Source of the DNA: Ruminococcaceae bacterium Marseille-P2935
GTDB lineage: Bacteria > Bacillota > Clostridia > Oscillospirales > Ruminococcaceae
Assembly: GCA_900104565.1 (NCBI GenBank)
Contig: LT629952.1
Location: 434,001 to 498,000 of the forward strand
Direction: 5' to 3'
DNA: 64,000 nucleotides
Shown here: positions 8,082 to 14,796 of the stretch, one piece after another
How the letters are laid out: each line of letters opens with the position of its first letter
Position numbering within the stretch: the first letter of the stretch is position 1
Notes under the pieces: generated by a model
Told to the model about the DNA's origin: nothing
The model's input: the letters and a program-made list of their open reading frames with translations, nothing else
Databases searched by the model: none
Program-made: the position numbers and the translations under genes

Positions 8082-8246
8082 ATGGAACAGATCAATTTAA
8101 TTTTATGTAATAAGGATTGTATCCATCAAAAAGAGGGATACTGTGCTCTCAACGAGATACAGTATCCCTCTTTGGAAGGCAAAGCAAATGGGTGCGCATA
8201 CTTTATCAGCCGGGAAAAGGAGCCTGGTAGTCATTTTATGGCATGA
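8082..8246 (+). CDS. Small Cys-rich protein (CxxxC...C...C)
   Basis: A 54-aa frame starts MEQINLILCNKDCIHQKEGY and contains four cysteines (CNKDC, YCAL, GCAYF), a pattern seen in many short clostridial proteins of unknown function, often mis-named as dehydratases. GGAG lies seven bases before the ATG at 8082; another ATG directly precedes it at 8079. It ends 16 bases inside the convergent radA gene. The cysteines could bind zinc or an iron-sulfur cluster; no partner is indicated by the neighbours. Confidence 0.7.
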   Translation: MEQINLILCNKDCIHQKEGYCALNEIQYPSLEGKANGCAYFISREKEPGSHFMA

Positions 8247-9616
8247 ATTGCCTGACTGAGGCTTTTTACCCCAACCAGATCAAGCTGAGGCATTTCAGCA
8301 GTGCGAATTTGAACGGCACAGGAATGCGGAAGAATGATTTTGTGGAATCCTAAGCGATATGCTTCGTTCACACGGCTTTGAGCCTGCCCTACTGCACGGA
8401 TTTCCCCCGCAAGACCAATTTCACCAAAGGCAACAATAGATTCATCGATTGGTTTGTCCAGAAGATTTGAAACTAGCGCCAACGCCACTGGCAGATCGGC
8501 CGCTGGCTCGTCTAAACGCAGTCCCCCAACAACATTGATATAAGTATCAATGTTGCCAAAAAAATATCCCACTCTTTTTTCCAATACAGCCAACATCAGA
8601 GAAGTACGGTTATAATCAAATCCGGTAGACATTCTTCTGGGGGTACCAAAAGCCGTTTTGCTCACTAATGCCTGGACCTCTGCTAAAATGGGCCTGGTCC
8701 CCTCCATAACGCAGGATACGCAGGTACCTGACACCATTCCCGGTCGGCCGGAAAGAAGCATAAGCGAAGGGTTTTCCACCTCTCTAAGGCCATCCTCACC
8801 CATTTCAAATACGCCAATTTCATTGGTGGAGCCAAACCGGTTTTTAACTGCTCGCAAAATTCGATAACTTAAGCTGCGTTCCCCTTCAAAATATAACACG
8901 GTATCAACCATATGTTCCAAAACTTTTGGGCCGGCAATTGCCCCATCCTTGTTGACATGCCCTACAATAAAAATAGGAATATCATTCTCCTTGGCTTCCC
9001 GTACAAACAGTTGCGTAGACTCCCTTACCTGAGAAACACTTCCTGTGCTGGAGGACAAACTGGAGAGATTCATCGTTTGAATGGAATCGATAATTACCAT
9101 ATCAGGTTTTACCGACTCGATCGTATCAATCACTGTTAACGTGTCAGTTGTGCAGCTAATCAAAAGATTTTCGGTCGATACTCCCAACCGAATGGCGCGA
9201 AGTTTCAGCTGGCGCATACTTTCCTCACCGCTTACATACAAAACACGCATTCCCATGCAAAGCTGCTGGCAGATCTGCAGAAGCAAAGTAGACTTACCAA
9301 TTCCCGGATCTCCGCTGATTAATACGACCGACCCGGGAACAATGCCTCCACCCAATACACGGTTTAACTCCGTCATTCCGGTATTGTGGCGAATCCCTTC
9401 GTCCGCAGATATTTCCCCTAAATTTAACACTTGGGCTGGACCAGGGGTAGTCAGCAAATTTGCCGAGGCTTTTTTTGCTGCAGCTGTAGTTGGCTGTGCT
9501 TTTACCTGCTCGACAAACGTATTCCATTCGTTGCATTCAGGGCACTTTCCCTGCCATTTTGGGGATTCATACCCACATTCATTGCATACAAAAACGGTTT
9601 TTACCTTTACTGCCAC
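8231..9616 (-). CDS. radA: DNA repair protein RadA (Sms)
   Basis: The 461-aa protein has the full RadA plan: N-terminal zinc finger (C11-x2-C14...C25-x2-C28), RecA-like ATPase with Walker A GDPGIGKST (about 100-110), the RadA-specific KNRFG motif in RAVKNRFGSTNEIG, and a C-terminal Lon-like domain. It promotes branch migration of recombination intermediates. It lies four bases after the stop of the 3' part of cwlD, so it appears to be in one operon with cwlD; since cwlD is interrupted upstream, radA must rely on a promoter inside the 3' half or in the inserted element until excision. Confidence 0.97.
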   Translation of the reverse strand: MAVKVKTVFVCNECGYESPKWQGKCPECNEWNTFVEQVKAQPTTAAAKKASANLLTTPGPAQVLNLGEISADEGIRHNTGMTELNRVLGGGIVPGSVVLISGDPGIGKSTLLLQICQQLCMGMRVLYVSGEESMRQLKLRAIRLGVSTENLLISCTTDTLTVIDTIESVKPDMVIIDSIQTMNLSSLSSSTGSVSQVRESTQLFVREAKENDIPIFIVGHVNKDGAIAGPKVLEHMVDTVLYFEGERSLSYRILRAVKNRFGSTNEIGVFEMGEDGLREVENPSLMLLSGRPGMVSGTCVSCVMEGTRPILAEVQALVSKTAFGTPRRMSTGFDYNRTSLMLAVLEKRVGYFFGNIDTYINVVGGLRLDEPAADLPVALALVSNLLDKPIDESIVAFGEIGLAGEIRAVGQAQSRVNEAYRLGFHKIILPHSCAVQIRTAEMPQLDLVGVKSLSQAIHAIK

Positions 9617-9620
9617 GTAC

Positions 9621-10208
9621 TTACACTTCCTTTAAATCGCATCCTAAATATTCCATCAAAGAGCTAAAGATAACAAAAGCAATTTTGTCCTGATATTCTT
9701 CTTCTGTTAAACGCTGCGCTTCTACCGTATTCGAAAGAAAACCGCATTCTACTAATACCGCGGTAGACGGCGCATGATAGATCAAATAAACGTCCTTATT
9801 AATTGGTTTGCATTTTCTGGTATTTTCCGGTTGAATCATTTCAATAAAACGGCGCTGCAAAATTTCAGCAACAGTTTTGCTGCTATCATCTTGCTGACCG
9901 TAAAAAATTTGAGTTCCCGAATATTTTGATTGTGAAAACTGGTTTTGGTGAATACTCAGAGTAATACTGCCGGGATGCTCTTCAATGATTTTTAAACGAT
10001 TATGAATATCAGATGTTTTTTGTTTTTTGATTCCGGTAATGCCTTTATTATGAATAGAAGTATCCGTTTCCCGCGTCATGACTACATCCATACCATAAAG
10101 CTGCAGTATGTCCCGCAGCTTAAGACCGATTGATAGATTAATATCTTTTTCTATAATGCCGTTTTGTCCTACAGCACCGCCGTCCATTCCGCCATGGCCT
10201 GGATCAAT
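9621..10208 (-). CDS. cwlD: CwlD N-acetylmuramoyl-L-alanine amidase, 3' portion of split gene
   Basis: This open frame encodes the Amidase_3 domain from IDPGHGG onward: zinc ligand Glu in GIIEKD, zinc ligand His in LSIHQNQF, catalytic Glu in LVECGFLSN. Its first codons are the duplicated core shared with the 5' portion at 13887-14041. Joining the two at the core gives a 240-aa protein (B. subtilis CwlD is 237 aa) with H50, E65, H132 and E199 in the expected order. CwlD cleaves the stem peptide from muramic acid in the spore cortex, the first step to muramic-delta-lactam required for germination. The frame is intact, arguing against simple decay. In the unexcised state it has no start, membrane anchor or promoter. 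Confidence 0.93.
   Translation of the reverse strand: MDPGHGGMDGGAVGQNGIIEKDINLSIGLKLRDILQLYGMDVVMTRETDTSIHNKGITGIKKQKTSDIHNRLKIIEEHPGSITLSIHQNQFSQSKYSGTQIFYGQQDDSSKTVAEILQRRFIEMIQPENTRKCKPINKDVYLIYHAPSTAVLVECGFLSNTVEAQRLTEEEYQDKIAFVIFSSLMEYLGCDLKEV
10189..10208. other. Attachment core at the recombinase end of the element
   Basis: The 20 bases match 13887-13906 at 18 positions, with the 11-base block CCATGGCCTGG (10192-10202) identical. The bases encode IDPGHGG in cwlD. Both mismatches are silent in cwlD, so crossover anywhere in the core restores the same protein. Confidence 0.88.
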
Positions 10209-10214
10209 GTAATA

Positions 10215-11783
10215 CTAAAATTTCCAGCAAATTTTTACACGGCGCCTTTCCCCTGCTTTTTTTATACCAATTTCTATTTTCTCCACCCACTCATCTGTTA
10301 TTGTATGGCTTAGTTCTTCCAGATGTTGATGGTCTAAAATAAACTGCTGAGGAGTGTTGGAGTCATCTGACAAACAATTTTTTTGTATTTCCTCCCAAAC
10401 AACCTTTTTTTGTTTTTCAATCTGTGCTAATTCCTGCTGAATTCGTTTTAAATATTGATAAAATTGTTCTTTGTGAACCAAACCTGCAACACGATCTTCA
10501 TATAGTTTTAAAATCATGTCCTGCCTGGTTAAATACTTTGTATTTAACCGTTGATATTCGGACTCCCAAAACTTGTGTTTTAAGCTGGTACTACTGCTTT
10601 TGGGAAAAGCAATTTTATGTGGTTGATAATATTGGCTCAGCAATTTATTAATCTCCTGCAGCAGAATGCCTTCCAACCAATCTAAGCGAAAAAAACTGCT
10701 GTTTTTACATAACTTGGAAGACAGCCTGGCATTTTTACATTGCAGGTAAAAGTAGCGTTTTTTTCCACTTTGAGTACTCAGCTTAACCATAGGAGAACCG
10801 CATTCACTGCAGAATATTTTACCGCACAATGGATGCTTTTCCCCTTCCAGCCGGCTGCTACGGGTTTGTACCTGCAATTTATTCTGTACTGCATTCCATG
10901 TAACTTGATCAATAATTGCATCATGGGCATCATAGCTGCGTATCCACTGGTCTTGAGGCAACTTTATTACCTTTTCGTTTTTATAGCTGAGAGGATGGCT
11001 TTTGCCCTGTACCAAGGTGCCGGTGTAAGTTTCGTTTCGAAGAATGTGAAAGATGGTAGGGGCTGTCCAGTAAAGCAACCGCGTTGGCTGTTTCCCTGGA
11101 GAAAAAGGGATACCAAGCAGACGTTTATGTTCGGTTGGGGAAGGAATTCCACGTTCGTTCAGCCATTTGGCAATTTTGATATATCCCCAGCCCTGCAGGT
11201 ATTGATGAAAAATATCTGCTACCACAGGTGCGGCTTGCGGGTCCGGTATCAAATGGTGCTTATCTTTGGGGTCAATTAAGTAACCAAAAGGAGCAAAAGA
11301 GCCAGTAAATTCCCCCCTGCGCCGTTTATGTTCCAAAACACTGCGAATGTTCTCTGAGAGATCTTCCAAGTACCACTCGTTTACCAAACCATTGATTTGT
11401 CGAGATTTTTTATTGCCGGCGATTTCGGTATCAGCATTGTCTACCAGCCCAATAAATCGAATATTCCACTCTACAAATTTACCATGTAGGTATTTTTCAA
11501 TCATTTCTAAGTCCCGGCTGAATCTGGACTGGGATTTACATAAAACAATATCTACCTTTCTTGCTTCGCAATCTGCAATTAATTGATTCCAGCCAGGGCG
11601 GTTGCGATCAGCACCAGAGTAGTCGTCATCGGAATAAATGCTAACTATCTCCCAGCCTTTTTTTAAACAATATTCAATCAGCATCGATTTTTGATTTTGA
11701 ATACTTTCGCTGTCTTCTAAAGGAGAAGACTTATTACGGTCTTCATCCGACAGACGAGTGTAAATTCCAACCTTGTTTGCCAT
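10215..11783 (-). CDS. Large serine recombinase (site-specific integrase/excisionase)
   Basis: A 522-aa protein with an N-terminal resolvase domain whose nucleophile is the Ser in YTRLSDE, followed by conserved catalytic stretches (YSDDDYSGADRNRPGW, KSQSRFSRD), a recombinase domain (about 165-290), a zinc-ribbon domain (CGKIFCSECG ... CKNARLSSKLC) and a C-terminal coiled coil (about 385-460). This is the plan of SpoIVCA, CisA and phage phiC31-type integrases. The ATG at 11783 (MANKVGIYTRLS) has AAAGG nine bases upstream; two earlier ATGs are too close to that site. The stop lies seven bases from the attachment core, the usual place of an integrase next to att. It is predicted to excise the element from cwlD. 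Confidence 0.93.
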   Translation of the reverse strand: MANKVGIYTRLSDEDRNKSSPLEDSESIQNQKSMLIEYCLKKGWEIVSIYSDDDYSGADRNRPGWNQLIADCEARKVDIVLCKSQSRFSRDLEMIEKYLHGKFVEWNIRFIGLVDNADTEIAGNKKSRQINGLVNEWYLEDLSENIRSVLEHKRRRGEFTGSFAPFGYLIDPKDKHHLIPDPQAAPVVADIFHQYLQGWGYIKIAKWLNERGIPSPTEHKRLLGIPFSPGKQPTRLLYWTAPTIFHILRNETYTGTLVQGKSHPLSYKNEKVIKLPQDQWIRSYDAHDAIIDQVTWNAVQNKLQVQTRSSRLEGEKHPLCGKIFCSECGSPMVKLSTQSGKKRYFYLQCKNARLSSKLCKNSSFFRLDWLEGILLQEINKLLSQYYQPHKIAFPKSSSTSLKHKFWESEYQRLNTKYLTRQDMILKLYEDRVAGLVHKEQFYQYLKRIQQELAQIEKQKKVVWEEIQKNCLSDDSNTPQQFILDHQHLEELSHTITDEWVEKIEIGIKKAGERRRVKICWKF

Positions 11784-11835
11784 CGGCATCATCCTTTACT
11801 TAGATTCAGCCGCCAGTACTGTAAGTACCTCTTTA

Positions 11836-11985
11836 TTATAATGTCTTATGCGGCTGTTGAAAAGAGGCATTCCATTCAAATGCAATTATTTTCGACATCC
11901 GCTGATTGATTTCGTCTTCCACTTTACTTTGATCCTGCGTTTGTATCACGGTAATCACCTCAATCTCTTCCCAGGTGTTTTCCAA
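11836..11985 (-). CDS. 49-aa protein upstream of the recombinase (candidate directionality factor)
   Basis: An open frame starts at TTG (11985) with AAGGGG six bases upstream and reads MENTWEEIEVITVIQTQDQS, then a helical segment KVEDEINQRMSKIIAFEWNA. It ends 52 bases before the recombinase start and lies directly downstream of the sigma-E-like promoter, so both would share one transcript. Excision by large serine recombinases usually requires a small recombination directionality factor, and this is the only other small gene in the element; that role is inference. It could also be a chance frame with a rare start codon. Confidence 0.5.
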   Translation of the reverse strand: MENTWEEIEVITVIQTQDQSKVEDEINQRMSKIIAFEWNASFQQPHKTL

Positions 11986-12013
11986 GCTATCATCCCCTTA
12001 TTTGTATTAATTC

Positions 12014-12042
12014 AAGGTATGAAAGCCTGGTTATTTTTATTC
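12014..12042 (-). promoter_or_regulatory. Sigma-E-like promoter for the small gene and recombinase
   Basis: Read on the minus strand, GAATAAAA is followed after 13 bases by CATACCTT. The -10 agrees with the sigma-E consensus CATACAHT at seven of eight positions, and the ATA to CATAC distance is 16, within the known 16-18 range. It lies about 30 bases before the TTG start, with no comparable sigma-A promoter there. Confidence 0.55.
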
Positions 12043-12073
12043 ATGGTTAAAAAATAATTATGTGGTAGGAATG

Positions 12074-12124
12074 TTAATAAATAATAAAAGCCCGGTTAAT
12101 TTCCGGGCTTTTATTATTTATTAA
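12074..12124. terminator. Bidirectional terminator between recombinase and antiporter units
   Basis: A perfect 22-bp inverted repeat (core AGCCCGG / CCGGGCT) with a 7-base loop and A/T tails on both sides begins two bases from the antiporter stop. It isolates the antiporter transcript from the recombinase unit, so the recombinase depends on its own promoter. Confidence 0.85.
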
Positions 12125-12125
12125 C

Positions 12126-13328
12126 TTAAGAAGCTATTCTCGCTTTATTTGTCTTAGTAGTGGTTACTGCAATTTCCCCGGAACGGGTTAAAGCAAACCG
12201 CGCAAGTACCGGACCAACCAATTCATAAATTAAAGTTGCACACAAAACAACGGCACGTATTTGTGCACCGTAAGTTGGTAACTGTGTCATGACAACCTGT
12301 GCCATGCCAATTGCAACACCGGCTTGTGGAAGTAAAGCTAGCCCGAGGTAATTTTGAATGTTTTTATCACTTTTTACAACTTTTGCACCCAGCATTGCCC
12401 CAAAATACTTTCCGATTGAACGGGCGACAATATATAATGCTCCAAGTAATCCTACTGTGGTAAGCACTTGTAAATCCAGCTCAGCACCAGAAATTACAAA
12501 AAACAGCATAAATAGCGGTGGTGTCCAACGATCCACCCCTTCGATAAGAGGTTCGGAGTCCTTTTTTATATTAACCATAGCCGCTCCAATGGCCATACAA
12601 AGCAGCAGCGAGCTAAGCCCCCACATATCGGCCAAAGCAACTCCCAACAGAACTGCAGCAATCATAATGGTCAAACGATTTGCCCGGGATTTGAAAAAAT
12701 GAAAGCAGAAAGCCATGAGTACACCAATTAATACTCCAATTGCCAAAGATCCAAGTATTTCAATTAAAGGATCAAGCAGCATAGTCTGCAAGGATGGCTG
12801 AGCCCCAGAGGCAAACAGCTGAGACACTGCCAACGAAATAGAAAATACAGCAAGTCCTATTGCATCATCCATAGCAACAACAGACAAAAGTGTATTAGTA
12901 ACAGGGCCTTGTGCATTATACTGACGTACAACCATCAATGTGGCAGCAGGTGCCGTTGCTGTTGCAATCGCACCAAGGGTTAAGGCCAGCGACAGATCAA
13001 AACCAAATAAAATTAACACACAATCTACTAAAATGACCGCAGCTAAAGCCTGAAATATAGTGATTACAAAAGCACTCATTCCTACCCGCTTCAAATTTTC
13101 CTTTTTAAATTCTCCGCCAATAGAAAAAGCAATAAATCCAAGGGCTACCGAAGTAATGCTGGATACTGCCGAAAGTGACTCTTCCTGAAAAATACCCAGG
13201 CAGTATGGCCCAACCAGCAAGCCTGCAACCAGGTATCCGGTAACATTGGGCAAATTTATTTTTTTAACAACTCGGCTAAGCAGTAAGCCAACCGCCATTG
13301 CCGCAGCAATACTGAACAAAATATTCAT
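12126..13328 (-). CDS. CPA2-family cation/proton antiporter (KefB/Na+:H+ type)
   Basis: The 400-aa protein is almost wholly membrane helices (about 12-13) and shows the monovalent cation:proton antiporter-2 pattern, including NVTGYLVAGLLVGPYCLG near the start, ATATAPAATLMVVRQ and AMDDAIGLAVFSI with the ion-binding Asp pair region. It lacks the C-terminal TrkA-N domain of KefB/C. The start overlaps the stop of the PII-like gene by ATGA, so the two are coupled. It is cargo of the cwlD element, read from a sigma-A-type promoter. It should exchange Na+ or K+ for protons at the cell membrane; which ion cannot be told. Confidence 0.88.
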   Translation of the reverse strand: MNILFSIAAAMAVGLLLSRVVKKINLPNVTGYLVAGLLVGPYCLGIFQEESLSAVSSITSVALGFIAFSIGGEFKKENLKRVGMSAFVITIFQALAAVILVDCVLILFGFDLSLALTLGAIATATAPAATLMVVRQYNAQGPVTNTLLSVVAMDDAIGLAVFSISLAVSQLFASGAQPSLQTMLLDPLIEILGSLAIGVLIGVLMAFCFHFFKSRANRLTIMIAAVLLGVALADMWGLSSLLLCMAIGAAMVNIKKDSEPLIEGVDRWTPPLFMLFFVISGAELDLQVLTTVGLLGALYIVARSIGKYFGAMLGAKVVKSDKNIQNYLGLALLPQAGVAIGMAQVVMTQLPTYGAQIRAVVLCATLIYELVGPVLARFALTRSGEIAVTTTKTNKARIAS

Positions 13329-13678
13329 ATCTCGTTTCTTGAAACTCCTTCAAAGTGCATTACTGGAACTGTAAAAACGATTCCTGTATTCGGTTTATCA
13401 AAATCACCGCAGATATTTCGAATAACCTGTTTTGCAGGAACAATCAGCTCGTCCGGCATCACGGCAAGCATCATTTTTCCGTTATTGTCACTATAGTCAA
13501 AAAGACTACGTTCTTGACCAAAAAAAGCAGGCAGTTTCGTACTCTTGCTAGAGGAAAGAACATGTAATATTCCTTCACAGTTTAAAAAAGTAGCTCCGCT
13601 GACTCCAGCTTCCATCAAACCAGACAGCACCTCTGGCATCTTATCTGATTGATTTGTAATATACACCAACAATTGCAT
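13325..13678 (-). CDS. PII-like signalling protein coupled to the antiporter
   Basis: A 117-aa protein starting MQLLVYITNQSDKMPEVLSG; the ATG at 13678 has AGGTG five bases upstream. Pattern (beta-strand start LLVYIT, EVLSGLMEAGVSGATFL, and terminal GIVFTVPVMHFEGV) is that of small PII-like trimeric proteins, which sense nucleotides and gate partner transporters. The ATGA overlap with the antiporter gene supports a regulatory partnership of that kind. The canonical GlnB uridylylation T-loop signature is absent. Family assignment is by pattern only. Confidence 0.6.
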   Translation of the reverse strand: MQLLVYITNQSDKMPEVLSGLMEAGVSGATFLNCEGILHVLSSSKSTKLPAFFGQERSLFDYSDNNGKMMLAVMPDELIVPAKQVIRNICGDFDKPNTGIVFTVPVMHFEGVSRNEI

Positions 13679-13707
13679 GGAATCACCTCTCAAAAATTTT
13701 TGATATA

Positions 13708-13736
13708 ATTATACCGTTTTTTGTCTTTTCTGTGAA
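13708..13736 (-). promoter_or_regulatory. Sigma-A-type promoter of the antiporter operon
   Basis: On the minus strand TTCACA and TATAAT are separated by exactly 17 bases, about 30 bases before the PII-like start. It points to vegetative expression of the cargo, unlike the recombinase unit. Confidence 0.75.
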
Positions 13737-13886
13737 GTATATAAATAATATTTTGTAAATAATGTATAAATATATTTTTTTAAGTTAAAGTAATATATTA
13801 GTTATAAAGACAATTATTAGTTTTTATTTCTATACAATTTTGGTTTACCTTACTGCATTAGAAAAGGAATTGTACTATTAATTACA

Positions 13887-13906
13887 CCACCATGGCCTGG
13901 GTCAAT
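13887..13906. other. Attachment core at the 5' cwlD end of the element
   Basis: Matches 10189-10208 at 18 of 20 positions; CCATGGCCTGG at 13890-13900 is identical. Lies in the codons for IDPGHGG. On the element side the reading frame leaves cwlD and stops after eight codons past GHGG. Confidence 0.88.
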
Positions 13907-14041
13907 AATAATAGTCGGATATGTAAAGGCATCACTTAAAACTGGTGCAGTTTTAGAAATATTTTTAATTGAAATACCAACTGCAATTGCACATAAAATA
14001 CTAAAAAAGATTCCTACAAGCATTGTTTGTCTGTTTTTCAT
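13887..14041 (-). CDS. cwlD: CwlD N-acetylmuramoyl-L-alanine amidase, 5' portion of split gene
   Basis: This piece starts MKNRQTMLVGIFFSILCAIA at 14041 (GGGGG eight bases upstream) and gives 52 residues: a signal-anchor helix (about 6-25), a linker, and TIIIDPGHGG containing the first zinc ligand H50. A longer frame to 14104 is less likely because it runs through the promoter. Unexcised, translation would run into the element and stop at 13850, giving an inactive 63-aa peptide. The rest of the gene is at 9621-10208. The anchor places the mature enzyme on the outer face of the mother-cell-derived outer forespore membrane/cortex space, as known for CwlD. Confidence 0.92.
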
Positions 14042-14355: not shown

Positions 14356-14430
14356 TGGAGGCGCCGACCAGATTTGAACTGGTGAATCAGGGTTTTGCAG
14401 ACCCGTGCCTTACCACTTGGCTACGGCGCC
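14356..14430 (-). tRNA. tRNA-Cys (GCA)
   Basis: 75 bases including an encoded CCA. The acceptor GGCGCCG pairs with CGGCGCC, the anticodon loop is CTGCAAA, and the T arm has GTTCAAATC. Last gene of a five-tRNA cluster read leftward and followed by a terminator. Confidence 0.97.
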
Positions 14431-14480
14431 AGTTATAGAAAAAGGTACTTTATTTTCATAAAGCACCTTTTCACGTCTTG

Positions 14481-14556
14481 TGGAGCGGGTTACGAGGCTC
14501 GAACTCGCTACCTCCACCTTGGCAAGGTGGCGCTCTACCAGATGAGCTAAACCCGC
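14481..14556 (-). tRNA. tRNA-Gly (GCC)
   Basis: 76 bases with encoded CCA; acceptor GCGGGTT, anticodon loop TTGCCAA, T loop GTTCGAGCC. Fourth in the cluster. Confidence 0.97.
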
Positions 14557-14559
14557 ATA

Positions 14560-14635
<76 letters not shown>

Positions 14636-14640
14636 ACAAA

Positions 14641-14717
14641 TGGCGACCCGGATGGGGTTCGAACCCACGACCTCTAGCGTGACAGGCTAGCGTTCTAACC
14701 AACTGAACTACCGGGCC
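14641..14717 (-). tRNA. tRNA-Asp (GTC)
   Basis: 77 bases with encoded CCA; acceptor GGCCCGG, anticodon loop CTGTCAC, T arm GTTCGAACC. Second in the cluster. Confidence 0.97.
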
Positions 14718-14720
14718 ATA

Positions 14721-14796
14721 TGGTGGGAACAACAGGGCTCGAACCTGTGACCCTCTGCTTGTAAGGCAGATGCTCTCCCAGCTGAGCTATGCTCCC
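14721..14796 (-). tRNA. tRNA-Val (TAC)
   Basis: 76 bases with encoded CCA; acceptor GGGAGCA, anticodon loop CTTACAA, T arm GTTCGAGCC. First in the cluster; the 3-5 base spacing to the next tRNA implies one primary transcript. Confidence 0.97.

Follow-up and report, generated by a model that had tools for sequence, protein, structure and literature searches.

The stretch analyzed here, 64,000 nucleotides of the genome of Ruminococcaceae bacterium Marseille-P2935 (contig LT629952.1; "the window" below), contains a gene, assigned below to cwlD, that is divided by an intervening element of 3,698 bp (10197..13894, ends set at the CA of the two His codons) encoding a large serine recombinase (LSR); the gene pieces and the element's genes all lie on the minus strand. 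The 5' piece (13892..14041) is an open reading frame (ORF) of codons 1-50, from the anchor helix to His50, and the 3' piece (9621..10196) is an ORF from His50 to the stop that supplies the remainder of the Amidase_3 domain. A 20-bp core, ATTGAYCCAGGCCATGGYGG, is found at each junction, the 5' copy (attL) at 13887..13906 and the 3' copy (attR) at 10189..10208 on the same strand; the copies are identical at 18/20 positions, and neither mismatch, one in a GAY and one in a GGY codon, changes the amino acid. 18/20 is also the top 20-mer identity between the two 200-bp flanks, where 60 shuffles reached at most 15. Joined, the pieces give 240 codons and retain H50, E65, H132 and E199, which we take to be the catalytic residues of Amidase_3. 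The original prediction, made from the letters of this stretch, is thus borne out in its two in-frame Amidase_3 gene pieces 3.7 kb apart, its core with 18 matches and silent mismatches, its 240-codon joined frame with the four residues and its recombinase between the pieces; the seven bases that it placed between recombinase and core are, on counting from the stop codon, six. That the element in cwlD is precisely excisable is well supported, and about as certain as sequence alone allows.

The order of features along the minus strand of the element is PII-like gene, antiporter gene, hairpin, small ORF and LSR. The LSR (525 aa, 10215..11792) scores over cut-off for three Pfam domains, Resolvase, Recombinase and zinc-ribbon, and its residue S15, presumably the catalytic Ser, is invariant among 10 aligned LSRs; by these features it is a large serine recombinase, apparently complete. 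The small ORF (49 aa, start codon uncertain, 11836..11985) is a candidate directionality factor gene identified with a hidden Markov model (HMM; E 0.0049). The cargo consists of a Na+/H+ exchanger-family antiporter (400 aa, 12126..13328; PF00999, E 7e-35), followed by a strong hairpin that is likely a terminator (12073..12125; fold of 12030-12140, z -9.1), and a PII-like protein (122 aa, 13325..13693; PF00543, E 2e-4, 3 bits under cut-off). Since 8/9 relative loci examined have a PII-like match next to the antiporter, these look like an ordinary chromosomal pair taken up as cargo. The G+C content of the element is 39.5% vs 40.8% for the window. No phage genes were seen in the 3.7 kb, just the LSR, small ORF, antiporter and PII-like genes, in an inspection that did not extend to PHROGs. 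Phage records with a tblastn match to the window LSR number 966, all at <60% identity, and 57 LSR relatives lie on viral contigs; in the 24 of these 57 inspected, none has a cwlD flank beside the LSR.

The assignment to CwlD rests on role and place. The best NCBIfam family of the joined protein is CwlD (TIGR02883), at 214.9 bits, with the next family at 79.9 bits, and the N-terminal anchor, the Amidase_3 H/E/H/E residues, the single copy, the sporulation regulators of the host and the joined protein's standing as the one closest to the CwlD proteins of relatives all point to the same identity. In the host genome, rated 100% complete, six Amidase_3 matches occur, the split gene included, and it alone is CwlD-grade; of the five others, four have matches to the joined protein no better than E 7.8e-11, and the fifth gives none at E 0.001. 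No second intact cwlD, a possibility raised with the original prediction, was therefore found elsewhere in this genome. The uninterrupted cwlD of relatives, another comparison suggested there, is common: 47 others of the 61 relatives searched match the joined protein at E <= 1e-30, and 46 of these 47 have an open cwlD frame of at least 223 aa, the 47th (G023) reaching a contig edge. The host has spo0A, over cut-off, and sigE and sigG are present within the window. Its sigK-like gene, 2.4 bits under cut-off, is one open frame of 301 aa, so that interruption of sigK as well is ruled out. As to neighboring genes, radA (8231..9616, minus strand; TIGR00416 over cut-off) lies downstream of cwlD, and five tRNA genes (Cys, Gly, Phe, Asp, Val) lie directly upstream of it at window positions 14356-14796. 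Elsewhere in the host genome two near-identical endolysin-like blocks (L004, C7:1066965-1070492, and L005, C7:1281886-1285416) are probably related prophages.

The same break point recurs in other genomes. When 84,980 species genomes were scanned with an LSR alignment, at least 558 loci were confirmed; among the window and the best 80 of these, which were examined, 26 have an Amidase_3 3' half at most 1.5 kb downstream of the LSR. Fourteen of the 26 are classed as cwlD (the window, L071, L073, L074, L075, L077, L078, L079, L081, L082, L084, L088, L089 and L097) and 12 as other amidases, mostly from Bacilli metagenome-assembled genomes (MAGs). In 11/13 of the non-window loci no more than 150 bp separate the start of the cwlD half from the LSR stop; the remaining distances are 530 bp (L078) and 1,224 bp (L084). 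When the joined protein is compared with these 13 non-window genomes, the top match is the LSR-linked cwlD 3' half (query start 36-49 of 240), and the next match is at E 1.3e-15 or weaker, or absent; no second CwlD-grade match is seen in these assemblies, whose completeness is not stated. A draw of 297 genomes from the host's family gave 198 with a joined-protein match at E <= 1e-25 and, among the matches listed, six frames of 191-201 aa (the window, G293, G254, G305, G256 and G318). In G293 and G254 the cwlD 3' half is immediately preceded by a same-family LSR, which brings the total to 16 genomes, window included; the fifteen others broken at the same point suggest a recurrent, removable insert in spore formers. 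For G305, G256 and G318 no same-family LSR was found beside the cwlD 3' half in the 2.5 to 13 kb fetched. Their halves (L236, L237 and L238) start at (P)PHGG or SPHGG after a stop, for which an element in the other orientation, a larger element or a different recombinase are possible explanations.

Both element ends are readable in 7/16 cwlD cases, window included, and these seven elements measure 3.70, 3.87, 5.81, 7.66, 11.78, 19.4 and 30.4 kb. The 5' half was not found where the contig begins first (L074, L075, L078, L079, L081, L088, L097 and L234), nor in L082 within the ~40 kb searched. The 3.9-kb version belongs to L071, from the named strain Marasmitruncus massiliensis Marseille-P3646; where the window element has the antiporter pair this one has TcdA-like and TtcA-like tRNA-modification genes (L071:6017-7702). 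Unbroken identity across the junction extends over 11 bp in the window and over 12, 9, 5 and 4 bp in L089, L071, L073 and L077, respectively; in L084 and L235 it covers the two bases CA only. The dinucleotide CA, with which the His codon opens, is the only one common to all 7/7 junctions, and because serine integrases cut at a central dinucleotide (PMC5595907, in the part of that paper drawn on here) it is the likely crossover. When element ends are joined as in a circle they form a palindrome with 20-base arms centered on CA, at p <= 0.0012 against random arm pairs in 5/6 tested; of 20 positions the scores are 13 (L071), 15 (L084), 13 (L073), 14 (L089) and 15 (L077), and for L235 11, a score without the random-arm comparison. 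The window's outer left arm, TAGTATT, is identical in L077, L084 and L089. A palindrome-guided search for ends at 15 loci recovered L071 and gave a plausible pair for L064, most other pairs being chance-like.

Synonymous divergence (dS) points to recent movement. Between the LSRs it is 0.36 for L088/L097 and 0.33 for L089/L097, and for the corresponding cwlD 3' halves 1.40 and 3.15; near-alike LSRs stand in diverged cwlD genes, and the element therefore entered the same codon in hosts already diverged. These comparisons show a mobile element that precisely retargets one cwlD codon. A dN/dS test of selection after insertion was dropped, the divergence of the host cwlD genes being older than the near-alike LSRs.

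In a quick tree of 94 of 95 LSRs (L063 was omitted as short), all 14 cwlD LSRs fall in one 17-row group, supported by an approximate likelihood-ratio value (SH-aLRT) of 94, and the cwlD label requires 4 changes vs a shuffled mean of 13.3 (0/500 as low). The window LSR lies in this group on a long branch with support 88, long branches being placed less surely. The adjoining group holds other-amidase and ABC-ATPase insertions, and a separate 21-row group contains all 17 cotJC rows of the tree; 34/94 rows are without an assigned target. A cotJC 3' half follows the LSR in 16 loci (L058, L059, L060, L062, L063, L065, L069, L099, L124, L127, L129, L131, L136, L137, L148 and L149), the first seven called by eye and three of them also by Pfam, with the LSR directly before the conserved E(Q/E)KAR-TY stretch. 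A cotJC 5' half (by eye) adjoins the LSR on the opposite strand in L125 and L141, and L182, an LSR relative on a viral contig, runs into cotJC. Halves of a PRK06851-family ATPase gene follow the LSR in L064 and L134, in L144 and L147 by reference match and in L128 by eye; the pair of ends found for L064 via the palindrome delimits a plausible 4.75-kb element in that gene. Cortex-lytic-like pieces, with matches below cut-offs, flank the LSRs of L066 (L066:8597-9499) and L068 (L068:2623-9007), and in L068 MntP-like and 383-aa genes lie between them, as if cargo. Halves of ABC-transporter ATPase genes stand beside LSRs in Bacilli MAGs (L111, L123, L133, L140, L142 and L145), called from the VALIRTLA motif in L111, L123, L133, L140 and L142, with L111 called by NCBIfam and the others by eye. 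The host itself carries a second same-family LSR (L057, C7:1374509-1375987; 43% identity, small ORF before it) that looks intergenic; a palindrome-guided search gave no convincing ends for it, and no target was found.

A small ORF often accompanies the recombinase. An ORF of 36-80 aa ends 0-160 bp upstream of the LSR in 79/95 loci, and when an HMM built from loci outside the cwlD set was run on 5,785 ORFs (window counted twice), its best matches were the small ORFs of 12/14 cwlD loci, 11 of them at E <= 0.005 (window 0.0049) and that of L074 at 0.033; it found none in L078, and the contig of L097 starts with the LSR. By this comparison the small ORF is a conserved family, and it is a fair inference that its product is a directionality factor. 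The role is put no higher than that because known directionality factors have no significant mutual sequence similarity (PMC5025042, in the part consulted).

The scheme that these observations favor is that the LSR would have placed the element into the codon of the CwlD zinc-ligand His50, the LSR alone integrating and the LSR with the 49-aa protein, as directionality factor, excising; recombination of attL with attR at CA would then restore H50 and the frame and free a 3.7-kb circle. In sporulating cells the main site of excision would be the terminal mother cell, so that CwlD could work on the spore cortex; the forespore chromosome would keep the element together with its antiporter cargo. 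Vegetative cells would have no need of cwlD, and its interruption there would cost little. Excision confined to the mother cell would explain the split form in assembled genomes. Taken whole, that an LSR element splits the sole cwlD gene and leaves it exactly, mainly in the sporulating mother cell, by means of the LSR and the 49-aa protein, is judged probable. By analogy with skin, SPbeta, vfbin and gin, timing to sporulation is the best explanation of excision and a likely one. The original prediction of a skin-like switch thus stands as to a site-specific, precisely reversible insertion, which anatomy and parallel cases strongly support; switching in the mother cell is what we infer.

Several observations weigh against this scheme. 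Excision is deduced, no rejoined junction having been observed, and the 5' half was located in 7/16 genomes, with completeness not stated for 13 assemblies. The spread is recent, and intact halves therefore need not prove long selection for rejoining. The window palindrome is weak, at 7/20 (p 0.25) or 10/20 at a 1-bp shift (p 0.054), 3/17 rows of the cwlD group (L072, L076 and L085) have no assigned target, and in Bacilli MAGs the wider LSR family also occupies genes for ABC ATPases and for other amidases. The joined protein misses the curated TIGR02883 cut-off of 221.55 bits, at 214.9; this shortfall is a trait of the clade, since the CwlD proteins of uninterrupted relatives, 7/7, also score below it (194-219 bits). 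A promoter scan was made with mother-cell consensus motifs and dinucleotide shuffles. The sigE-like site that it gave before the small ORF-LSR operon of the window is not significant (p 0.16); before cwlD itself one was found at p 0.01 (uncorrected), and in 2/12 operons, L071 and L089, at p <= 0.01 (uncorrected).

Some of the same facts would suit a mobile cassette that settles reversibly in cwlD on account of its conserved sequence and is excised rarely and at random, without developmental control, so that only cells that have lost it make germinable spores: recent horizontal spread into the same codon, the targeting of non-spore genes by the LSR family, the lack of a clear mother-cell promoter and the yin element of C. 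botulinum, excised at all culture times (PMC10747680, in the part consulted). Such a cassette is nevertheless rather unlikely, in that the family is repeatedly found in late-sporulation genes (cwlD, cotJC) and a target whose loss ends germination would be costly without timed release. Were the insertion instead dead and cwlD lost, the host would be without germinable spores or rely on another amidase; excision is indeed unobserved and other Amidase_3 genes are present, but these are far from CwlD, sporulation regulators are present, both cwlD halves and the LSR are fully open, and 14/14 of the cwlD-class 3' halves are open over at least 182 codons from the His codon, all of which makes such a loss quite improbable. 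It is scarcely credible that the 3' piece acts alone, as an unanchored amidase domain started near the right end of the element with no excision. The DPGHGG codons are kept in the window's 3' copy, and L071 and L077 have a GTG, overlapping the end of the LSR, from which the frame is open; however, reading back from DPGHGG in the window one reaches a stop before any ATG, GTG or TTG, a stop lies just upstream of HGG in L082 and L096, and the product would be without the N-terminal anchor or signal needed for leaving the cytoplasm.

Excision of the element at sporulation would place it beside the known intervening elements, as these are described in the parts of the papers cited here. Halves of a sporulation gene that rejoin in frame at a short core, and a recombinase of its own, are the features it shares with the skin type; like skin of B. 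subtilis and C. difficile, an LSR-encoding element in sigK, it splits a mother-cell sporulation gene in frame (PMC5025042). The 72-aa directionality factor of C. difficile skin is needed for excision (PMC5025042). Unlike skin, the element described here lies in cwlD with sigK uninterrupted, is 3.7 kb with no phage gene seen, has its LSR and candidate factor as neighbors, and its excision is predicted from sequence. Gin, in gerE of B. cereus ATCC10987, is likewise a non-phage element, with GirC as its LSR and GirX as its small factor, and it too has a short core in common with its gene (PMC5595907); it differs in its 28.6 kb, three recombinase genes, 9-bp core and target (PMC5595907), and the likeness to GirC and GirX is drawn here from presumed role. 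Vfbin in spoVFB, vrin in spoVR and SPbeta in spsM (PMC4191935), and yin in yabG (PMC10747680), are also intervening elements in sporulation genes, but these are prophages or elements with phage-related genes, and in the accessible text none is in cwlD (PMC4191935, PMC10747680), a word absent from the accessible text of both the yin and SPbeta papers. The convergence of diverged LSRs on one conserved coding site has a parallel in PMC10083194, where the example, in the part consulted, is a prolyl isomerase gene; the word amidase is absent from its main text, supplements lying outside the search. Interrupted spore genes on record in the sources consulted are sigK, spsM, spoVFB, spoVR, gerE and yabG. 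No report of an interrupted cwlD was found among 5.39 million open-access papers, subscription papers and supplements being outside the search.

CwlD and PdaA make the muramic-lactam mark by which germinating spores recognize the cortex (PMC10116595, PMC8496864, in the parts consulted). If the sole cwlD copy needs excision, germinability would hang on the recombinase of a mobile element and could itself be acquired or lost horizontally. The intervening elements named in the sources consulted are small in number, and most are single cases. In cwlD one codon is the site of the break in 16 genomes with diverged recombinases, so that comparative study can address the rules of attachment sites, the directionality factor and the terms on which element and host coexist, and the 3.9-kb version in a named strain makes the question directly testable. 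The cwlD element belongs to a family-wide pattern that reaches beyond the single case of the window. We consider it an even proposition that one LSR lineage, most members with a ~50-aa partner, has repeatedly colonized cwlD, at the CA of the zinc-ligand His codon, as well as cotJC, the PRK06851-family ATPase and cortex-lytic-like genes of gut Clostridia, as removable "developmental introns" with a free choice of cargo. If this is true, genome rearrangement in the mother cell would be common in this class and not a curiosity of sigK.

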